NCBI GenBank assembly: GCA_021030905.1
Contig: JAGFMI010000020.1
Coordinates: 670,437-734,436 of the forward strand
DNA from: Pyrenula massariospora
Taxonomy: Eukaryota; Ascomycota; Eurotiomycetes; Pyrenulales; Pyrenulaceae
Direction: 5' to 3'
Length of the DNA stretch: 64,000 bases
The first letter of the stretch is position 1. Each line of letters starts with the position of its first letter. Position numbers and translations under genes: made by a program. Under the pieces are notes generated by a model. That model was given only the letters and a program-made list of their open reading frames with translations. It had not been told where the DNA came from and made no database searches. This document shows positions 60,938 to 64,000 of this stretch, one piece after another.

Positions 60938-63915
60938 ATGATGGAAGCGTTAGCAGCGCTTAGTCTAGCCGGCAATATCATTCAATTTTTGGACTTCACA
61001 TCAAAGATTATCTCCAAGACTGAAGATTTCCATCGCGCGGGTGCTCCTGCGCCTGTTCTCAGCCTTGAGGCCACAAGCAAGGACATTGAGAGCCTGACTC
61101 CAAAACTTCTTTCATCTGCGCCATCCTCGCCTAGCCTCCCGAAATGCTCACCAGAAGACGACAAGGTAGGCATATCTGTTCCATTGAACCGTGATTAACA
61201 TTTTATAGGCTATCAAAGATCTCGTGCAAAGCTGCAGATCTGTCTCTCATAGGTTGATCAAAGCTATAGATCAGATAAAAGTAACGCCTGGTCAACCAAA
61301 ATGGAAGTCATTCCAAAAAGCTCTGAAAGCCTCTTGGAAAAAGGATGAAATCGAAAATCTTGCAACTGAGATCCTAACATTCCAGAACGAGCTGAAATTT
61401 AGAATACTTGTAGGTCTGAGAGCTTCCGTCGACGCAAAGGCTGTGCAAGATGACAAACGCTTCGAAAAACTTGATATGGAATCCCAGAACATAATCAAAG
61501 CTATTCTCCAATCGCGGGAGGTCTTCAAACACGAGATTGTTACTTCGACGGAAACAATCCTAAAGCGACAAGACCAGAGTGAGAAATTGGCTCTCACTCT
61601 TCATTCGGAAACTCTCAGAGCTCTGGGAGCCGTCGTGAAAGAAAAACGTGCCACTATCGTCGCTCGTTGTCTGAACATGATTGGCTACCATTCAATGCGC
61701 GTTCGCGAGGAAGACATTTCCCCTGCTCACCGCAAAACGTTTCAATGGATTCATGACGAATCAGGCCGTCAAATGGGATCATCTAGTAACTTTGTTGAAT
61801 GGGTTCGGACTGGAAAGTGCTGTTACTGGGTTCAAGGAAAAGCTGGGTCCGGTGGGATTATACCTATCCTGAAAAGTAGCTAAGCGCTAACACATTGCAG
61901 GTAAATCAACTCTGATGAAGTACATCACCGATTCTCCAGAGATAAAAAAATGCATGAATCAGTGGGCGAGTGGATCAACTCTTGTCTCTGCCAGATTCTT
62001 TTTCTGGGGAAGCGGTACTTCACTGCAGCGCTCTCAAACTGGTCTCTTCCGCTCGCTTCTATATACTCTCATTAGCCATCGAGAGGAACTCCTTGAAATT
62101 TGCTTCCCTCGGCTGTACGATAATGTGAACGAACAAAGAGACTACTCAAATGATTTTACGCTAGGGGAATTAAAGAATGCCTTTTCCAAGGCACTTGAAT
62201 GTGCCACGCCTCAGCAGAAGTTTTGTTTCTATATCGATGGTATTGATGAGTTTGAGGGAGACAAGGTAGAGATATCGGACTTTTTTAAATCTATAGCCTG
62301 CGACCCTCGGTTCAAAATTGTCGTGTCAAGTCGTCCAATTCCTGCCTGCATTGACGTCTTCCACGATTGTGCAAGTTTAAGACTGCAAGACATAACGAGA
62401 GGAGATATTCATCAGATTGTGAACGACACAATTGGTACGCATCGGTGGATGAAAGAGATCCAAGAGGAGCAACCGGCTGAAGCTTTAGCTTTGGTAAGAA
62501 AGGTTACGGAACGAGCTTCTGGAGTCATTCTATGGGTGATTTTAGTTGTACGTTCATTAATGAATGGGCTTCGAAACTTTGACACAATTGAGGACTTACA
62601 TACGCGGCTGATGGCTTTTCCAACTGAGCTGAAAGATCTTTATCAGCACATGTTTGTCTCTATGGAGCCTCTTTATCGAAAACAATCATCGAAGATCTTT
62701 CAACTAGTCCGCCTGTATCGGGATATATCATGTTGCAGAACGTATGTGGACGACGACATGATTGGTATTACTATACTACAACTCTACCATGCGACTAAAG
62801 GAGAGCCGGAGCATGCAATTACGCACAGAATACAAAGCTTGTCAGCGTCCCAAAAAAGAACAAAAGCTACAGCTATGGAAGGTCGTCTACGAAGCCGTAG
62901 CTGTGGCTTGCTCGAAGTCAGGCACGGTACATGGTACGGGCACGGCTTTTGTGACTCCCCTGTTGTGCTCTTTCATCACACTGTTCTAGACTACCTCTAC
63001 GATCCTAAACTATGGAAACATATTGTCTCTACGATAGATTCGATGATCTCTGTAACAAAGTATATTGATGAAGTTGCGCGGCTCTGGCTTCACCATGAAG
63101 AGGACATGCAAAGACAACAATTCGCAGAAATTGACCTTGATAACCTCACTGAAAAGTATGCGGAGGGTATGCAATTTGACAGTTGCGGTCACCGAGGGCA
63201 GACACAGATTTTGCTTTCTGATCCTGCCTTTGCCCGTCTAAGTAGGCGTTTCGGGCCGGAGCCAACCTTCTTCTCAGTCGCAGCGGTGCGTGGTCTCCAA
63301 ATATATGTCTGCGAGAAACTTTGTAGTCCGGAAGTCATGAAAATGCATCCCGATCATAGGTCTCGAGTGTGGTCTAATCTTACAGTGGCAAAAATTGACG
63401 GAGTCTGCCTGCACCAGTCTATCAAAATTTTTTTTACCCCAGGTGAGGCTCAAGAAAAGAGGCAGCATCATCTTACTCTGATCGCGGAAATACTCCAAAG
63501 TGGAATTAATGTAAATGAACCTCGGACACACAAGTCTGTACCTTCCTTCCAAAAAAATCAGTCTTTCCATCAAGACATGAGTATTCTTGAAGAAGTTACA
63601 GGCCAAAGCATGTGGACAGTCTTCCTCAGATATGTTGACCACTGGAATTTCAACGGTGCCTGGGATCTGGCGTCGCTCTCTGAGTCTAATTCTCTTAAGT
63701 CTTTCGAAACCATAGCCGACAAATTTCGCAATGCAGGGGCAGATTGGGAAGCTTCATATATCCGCAATCAACGACAGCGCAAAGCTCAAATCGTGGTATC
63801 AGAGGCATTTGATACACTTCTTGAGCAACAGCGTGTACATCCACGAAATGAAGGCCTAAGAAAAAGCGAGTCAGACACCCCGACATCTGAAGCACAGAGC
63901 AATTGCTCGGGATAG
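60938..63915 (+). CDS. NLR-like NACHT protein, terminal gene of the chromosome
   Basis: Exons 60938-61165, 61209-61851 and 61901-63915 give 961 residues. The N-terminal helical domain begins MEALAALSLAGNIIQFLDF, the common start of fungal NACHT proteins; a long helical linker follows. The P-loop is QGKAGSGKST (Lys 292), interrupted by a phase-1 intron at the same codon as in the NLR at 47982. Walker B is FCFYIDGIDEFEGD, followed by VVSSRPIP and a winged-helix-like region (ERASGVILWVILVVRSL). The C-terminal part has HTVLDYLYD and weak ankyrin-like pieces (EILQSGINVNEP, KFRNAGADWEA), then a polar tail. The stop codon is only 11 bp before the first perfect TTAGGG, so there is no room for an ordinary 3' untranslated region. 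The gene may have been cut by chromosome breakage with little loss, or its original tail is missing. Likely an immune or allorecognition receptor. Confidence 0.88.
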
Positions 63916-64000
63916 GGGGGTGGGGGTTAGGGTTAGGGTTAGGGTTAGGGTTAGGGTTAGGGTTAGGGTTAGGGTTAGGGTTAGGGTTAGGGTTAGGGTT
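63916..64000 (+). repeat. Telomere, TTAGGG repeats
   Basis: Twelve perfect TTAGGG units plus TT run from 63927 to the last base; the G-rich strand points outward as expected for a right chromosome end. They are preceded by GGGGG-T-GGGGG (63916-63926), which looks like a degenerate first unit. The array is cut by the end of the window or assembly, so its real length is unknown. Confidence 0.98.

Follow-up and report, generated by a model that had tools for sequence, protein, structure and literature searches.

An NLR-like gene that ends at a telomere in Pyrenula massariospora, probably at a capped chromosome end

At one contig end of Pyrenula massariospora (assembly GCA_021030905.1), a gene for an NLR-like receptor closes with a TAG codon that is separated from a TTAGGG array by only a few G-rich bases, and the question raised is whether the gene was cut there and the raw end capped, or whether a complete gene has come to lie directly beside a telomere. 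The window, by which we mean the whole stretch of 64,000 nucleotides analyzed, covers bases 670437-734436 of contig C12, and its end is the last base of that contig; the genome assembly comprises 37.8 Mb in 33 contigs, with 66 contig ends. The features at the end of the window are given below, with the exons joined by eye at GT/AG sites.

60938-61165, + strand: exon 1, with the start codon and the N-terminal part of SesA (splice by eye, translation, Pfam)
61209-61851, + strand: exon 2, which ends within the P-loop (GKAGSG|KST) (sequence, translation)
61901-63915, + strand: exon 3, with the rest of NACHT (NPHP3_N), DUF7791, the C-terminal region, and TAG (open frame, Pfam, structure model)
63913-63915, + strand: stop codon TAG, the first three bases of TAGGGGGGTGGGGG (sequence)
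63916-63926, + strand: G-rich junction GGGGGTGGGGG, 11 bases, either an irregular first telomerase product or an older seed
63927-64000, + strand: TTAGGG array, truncated where the contig stops, with the first full TTAGGG at 63927

The spliced gene consists of three exons and encodes 961 amino acids, with start codon, introns, and P-loop all in place. Its last-exon frame is open over 674 codons (61891-63915), and the end of the gene reads TGC TCG GGA TAG GGG GGT GGG GGT TAG GG... A first-pass annotation had described a frame that stays open to the TAG at 63913-63915 and passes, after 11 G-rich bases, into perfect TTAGGG; the former is correct to the base, and the latter is borne out by the sequence and by Tandem Repeats Finder, which assigns 12.8 perfect copies to positions 63924-64000. 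The GGG ahead of the first TTAGGG is in telomeric register. Unique DNA is here joined directly to terminal telomere repeats: the window sequence contains no repeat between the gene and the array, and the last 624 bases have no second copy in the genome, matching only themselves. With only 11 bases between TAG and TTAGGG, there is no room for a polyadenylation region belonging to the gene.

Whether the array is a telomere can be judged from the remainder of the assembly. The last 500 or more bases were read at all 66 contig ends (one, C26L, reads N), and 24 of them carry an outward terminal TTAGGG array. Matches to (TTAGGG)3 number 161 + 89 in the genome, every one of them at a contig end and facing outward, and the arrays therefore behave as true telomeres. 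Their length is another matter. Pure terminal repeat amounts to 74-77 bases at 24 of 24 telomeric ends, and the same maximum of 77 is reached at contig ends made of TAA (70-77 bases in the seven with a run of at least 20) and of poly-C (25-77 bases, n = 6). A true telomere of 77 bases was rejected on the grounds of this common ceiling, which is apparently one of assembly, so that real telomere length cannot be read from the array; a maximum of this kind would be expected from word-based assembly at a word length near 77. At C2R and C6R, the arrays extend to 139 and 132 bases, closing with 76 and 75 pure bases, respectively. Each of these two contains one variant repeat, TTTGGG in C2R (L010) and an extra A (TTAAGGG) in C6R (L012), and no other irregular repeats occur inside the 24 arrays. 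At 11 of the 24 telomeric ends, GC is at most 0.24 in the last 300 bases; low GC is a frequent trait of mutated repeats in fungi.

The absence of a subtelomeric repeat behind the gene, to which the first-pass annotation also drew attention, stands, and it holds likewise at the other telomeric ends as far as they were read. An all-versus-all comparison of the 24 ends (about 10 kb for nine, including the window, and 423-431 bases for 15) revealed no junction-adjacent element common to them in the sequence compared. Only four matches were obtained, all among C5L, C6R, C13R, and C14L, none of them lying at both junctions and none involving C12R. One stretch about 3 kb inside C5L is matched by C14L at 86%. 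An element beside the telomere common to many ends, as in a classical subtelomere, was not seen, and since the other ends are alike in this, its absence behind the NLR gene is no peculiarity of that gene. Colletotrichum higginsianum, in which 24 telomeric ends were likewise examined, is reported to differ in that conserved repeats are present at all 24, each end having one of three elements (PMC5576322), whereas no such common element was found beside the junctions compared here. In rice blast, telomere-adjacent DNA is described as poorly conserved, which is attributed to truncation and the formation of new telomeres (PMC8381367).

The protein encoded at the window end can be placed with some precision. 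Pfam matches above cut-off are SesA (residues 13-133), NPHP3_N (264-435), and DUF7791 (544-671); the NACHT model itself scores 24.2 bits, 2.5 bits short of its cut-off of 26.7, and the P-loop is GKAGSGKST. As predicted, the protein combines an N-terminal SesA-type domain with a P-loop-containing NACHT NTPase, the pairing by which a fungal NLR is recognized. No Pfam repeat family that would indicate C-terminal sensor repeats was matched, and the model has a helical C-terminal region. The DUF7791 match stops at position 135 of the 162 in the profile; among seven relatives scanned, it reaches 152-160 in six and 125 in the remaining one. Around window positions 63001-63080, some 50 residues that P0001 and P0002, two related proteins, have at the end of DUF7791 are missing from the NLR, possibly through an in-frame deletion. 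The family is a large one, with at least 50 exon-level genome matches to the NLR at E <= 0.001, its own two exons counted. A structure model of exon 3 (61903-63912), built on an alignment of 35 of the 120 listed relatives, has a mean pLDDT of 80.2, with the last 22 residues below 50; searched against the PDB, it gave weak matches, mostly to ORC/Cdc6-type ATPases (best E 2.1e-4, TM-scores 0.16 and 0.25).

Whether the gene was once longer is the central point, and here the evidence comes from its relatives, of which there are at least 206 matches, with comparisons drawn from the 120 listed. The closest among the matches listed are P0001 and P0002, both 37% identical to the window protein. Their alignments end at window residues 939 and 940, beyond which they continue for 208 and 204 residues, and 22 and 21 residues of the window protein remain; net of this unaligned end, their C termini are about 185 residues longer. 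The two are 80% identical to one another overall and 70% across their last 506 residues, so that the tails are conserved between them. Among the best 7991 candidates, the P0001 tail was found in P0001 and P0002 only. In a search of the genome run without a positive control, the last 218 residues of P0001 matched nothing at E values up to 10. In the P0001 model, the part without a counterpart in the window protein consists of a helix (697-715), then a long stretch of low confidence (718-882), and at the terminus a second helix (883-904). These models suggest that a cut would have taken away little fold, the loss being mainly of a tail predicted to be disordered in the closest relative and the predicted folded core being kept. 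From these comparisons, we infer that the gene once extended further. Across the broader family, the window gene has 292 residues after residue 669 compared with a median of 365 in 85 measured relatives from the 120 listed, 12 of which have less than the window gene, although tail lengths are uncertain because the metagenomic ORFs were predicted without introns. Moreover, because the last 22 residues do not align, the end of the gene may be lineage-specific rather than cut.

Three further telomeric ends carry reading frames that stay open for 140-143 codons into TTAGGG:

L096, 3498-4500: frame at C21R, spliced, 565 codons, with a Clr5 domain and TPR matches below cut-off
L097, 4004-4500: frame at C22R, 141 codons, downstream of a homeobox-KN gene
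L098, 3713-4500: frame at C29R, a protein without Pfam match

The most informative of these is C29R. Along most of its length it has counterparts of 37-45% identity at 11 other places in the genome, of which two contain internal stops; 14 further matches are weaker. In five of five internal paralogues (five of the 11 places were retrieved), a second exon lies downstream of the point at which C29R enters its telomere, amounting to 490 open residues in L100, from which the query was taken, and 413-502 alignment columns in the other four. At the C29R locus, there is no second exon. Because the exon present in all five paralogues is missing, the comparison shows this end to be a gene cut by its telomere. 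The remaining two are less easily placed: C21R has a single relative, weakly matched (E 1.3e-4, 9% of query covered), and no match in its own genome except itself, and for C22R, paralogues exist for the earlier exons of the upstream homeobox-KN gene, with no match to its last open frame in the two paralogue loci searched, so its membership of that gene is putative, as would be any truncation. At C17L (L047), an open frame of 116 codons stops 78 bases short of the telomere. The frames differ in how they enter the repeats. In C22R, the first telomeric codon is TAG; C21R and C29R enter in the frame TTA-GGG and by translation would acquire a stop-free Leu-Gly tail.

How often a gene would be met at a telomere by chance was estimated for the nine GC-rich telomeric ends, defined by a GC of at least 0.43 in the last 300 bases, a threshold set after the data had been seen. 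A long frame reaches the junction at four of these nine, one being the window, which had been picked by a reader, and at none of the 15 other ends. Of cuts placed at random where the window is GC-rich, 35% meet a frame of this kind; for 10-kb pieces taken at five other contig ends, the rate ranged from 4.5% to 67.5%. The probability of four or more in nine is P = 0.40, on which an excess of genes at telomeres above the random-cut rate was rejected, and among these ends no preference of telomeres for genes is seen. Each of the four frames is directed toward its telomere (P about 0.06 on an assumed forward rate of 0.18), which is suggestive at most of an orientation bias. The telomeres lie about where random cuts would fall, and this fits the capping of randomly broken or eroded ends.

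The origin of the stop codon depends upon that of the G-rich tract. The pattern GGGGGGTGGGGG has 110 matches in 37.8 Mb (52 + 58 by strand), or about one per 344 kb, a control pattern giving 46 + 66; at this frequency, its occurrence exactly at the junction is unlikely to be chance. At the other 23 junctions, no run of five or more G lies beside the array. The tract may have been synthesized by telomerase as an irregular first stretch, in which case the TAG is telomere-made, or it may be an older tract that attracted telomere addition, in which case the TAG may be the native stop. In yeast, TG-rich tracts are reported to be preferred sites of telomere addition (PMC10055226). The tract in the window is like them in being TG/G-rich and oriented toward the new telomere, and unlike them in that it is known from sequence alone and may itself be a product of telomerase.

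Taken together, these observations are probably best explained by breakage or erosion in or just behind the NLR gene, followed by capping by telomerase. The chromosome would once have extended beyond the gene; its end would have been lost, and telomerase, which we infer to be the maker of the new end, would have capped what remained, either within the C-terminal tail or at most a few bases from the stop. The product would be what is observed at the junction, namely unique sequence that passes through a few G-rich bases into TTAGGG, with the receptor retaining its predicted folded core and losing mainly its tail. The first-pass annotation had proposed a break healed by new telomere addition, with the stop supplied by the junction. 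A capped break or eroded end is indeed the best-supported reading, from the pattern of the 24 ends, the cut at C29R, and the greater length of the two nearest relatives; its claim about the stop holds only if the tract is telomerase-made. A different view is that nothing has been removed, the TAG being the native stop and GGGGGTGGGGG the native flank, with the telomere seeded on the G-rich tract behind it. The yeast preference for TG-rich tracts would accommodate this (PMC10055226), as would the shorter tails of 12 of the 85 relatives, the predicted disorder of the last 22 residues, which is possible in a natural C terminus, and the case of Avr-Pita in rice blast, reported intact 48 bp from a telomere (PMC8381367). 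We nevertheless consider a complete gene unlikely, given that the two closest listed relatives have C termini about 185 residues longer and that its 3′ flank would be 11 bases, without a polyadenylation region of its own.

Very improbable, in our judgment, is an assembly artifact, or an interstitial array with the gene continuing on an unjoined contig. The contig halts at 77 pure bases exactly as contig ends of TAA and poly-C do, and for that reason a contig end alone is no proof of a chromosome end. Against this, no contig end carries an inward array, no inward or interstitial (TTAGGG)3 was found in the genome, and the tail of the relatives was not found elsewhere in it by the search mentioned above, which had no positive control. 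That the gene was instead copied or moved to an existing end, by capture during telomere repair, so that no chromosome was cut at this point, can hardly be credited. Internal sequences are reported to be captured at failing telomeres of rice blast (PMC8381367), and NLR-like genes are many here (the 50 or more exon-level matches, own two exons included); the last 624 bases are, however, single copy in the genome, and the gene has its start codon, introns, and P-loop in place.

If the end was indeed formed by breakage or erosion and capping, a number of consequences would follow for the gene. In its transcript, no more than 11 bases would separate the stop codon from UUAGGG, and a 3′ region belonging to the gene would be lacking. 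An array of (TTAGGG)17 is reported to be enough in Neurospora for a repressive domain some 225 kb in extent to be induced (PMC5752202), and telomeric silencing of the NLR gene is for this reason plausible. The Leu-Gly frames of C21R and C29R are of interest because mammalian TERRA, according to work cited in PMC10602879, is translated into dipeptide repeats. A bolder proposal, which we regard as distinctly doubtful, is that telomeres have repeatedly been added within genes oriented toward the chromosome end, yielding gene-telomere fusions whose mRNAs run into UUAGGG in the manner of TERRA, so that the telomere supplies the 3′ end and even codes for protein, and a trimmed NLR with a complete core comes under telomere control. 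Were this true, the entry frame would set the product, giving a stop at the junction (the window NLR, C22R) or a stop-free Leu-Gly tail (C21R, C29R). Such loci, if real, would be natural tests of transcription from gene to telomere, of the way in which an mRNA is completed when the gene supplies no 3′ region, and of the fate of ribosomes on stop-free telomeric codons. The window offers a clean case of a gene that ends at a telomere, in a genome that has at least one other telomere-cut gene and two more frames entering telomeres, and capping of this kind would be one route by which the variable tail of an NLR is trimmed with its predicted core kept. A literature search, too narrow to claim absence, returned no gene reading into a telomere and no fungal NLR at a subtelomere.

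Several known systems provide points of comparison. The window gene resembles fungal NLRs of SesA-NACHT-DUF7791 architecture in having SesA, NPHP3_N, and DUF7791 above cut-off, and differs from them in its shorter DUF7791 match, in the approximately 50 residues that are missing, and in the telomere at its end. For the junction, a parallel is found in Plasmodium falciparum, where deletions of pfhrp2 and pfhrp3 are reported to have breakpoints capped by telomere repeats, those of pfhrp2 lying predominantly inside the gene (PMC11458181). Telomere repeats cap a break in a gene, as is proposed for the window; there, this was shown by reads from field samples compared with a reference, whereas here it is deduced from one assembly, distant relatives, and paralogues. 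In the rice blast fungus, Pyricularia (Magnaporthe) oryzae, truncated chromosome ends are likewise described to gain new telomeres, 19 of 24 of which are reported to have grown from seeds of 1-4 nt (PMC8381367, PMC7367193). There, as here, TTAGGG is joined to unique, poorly conserved DNA, and a gene, Avr-Pita, lies 48 bp from a telomere; the process is documented there across strains and single-spore cultures, whereas the join described here coincides with the stop of an NLR-like gene and is seen in one genome. What the window adds is probably one more instance of a process already known, seen as capping inside genes in Plasmodium and as terminal truncation in rice blast.
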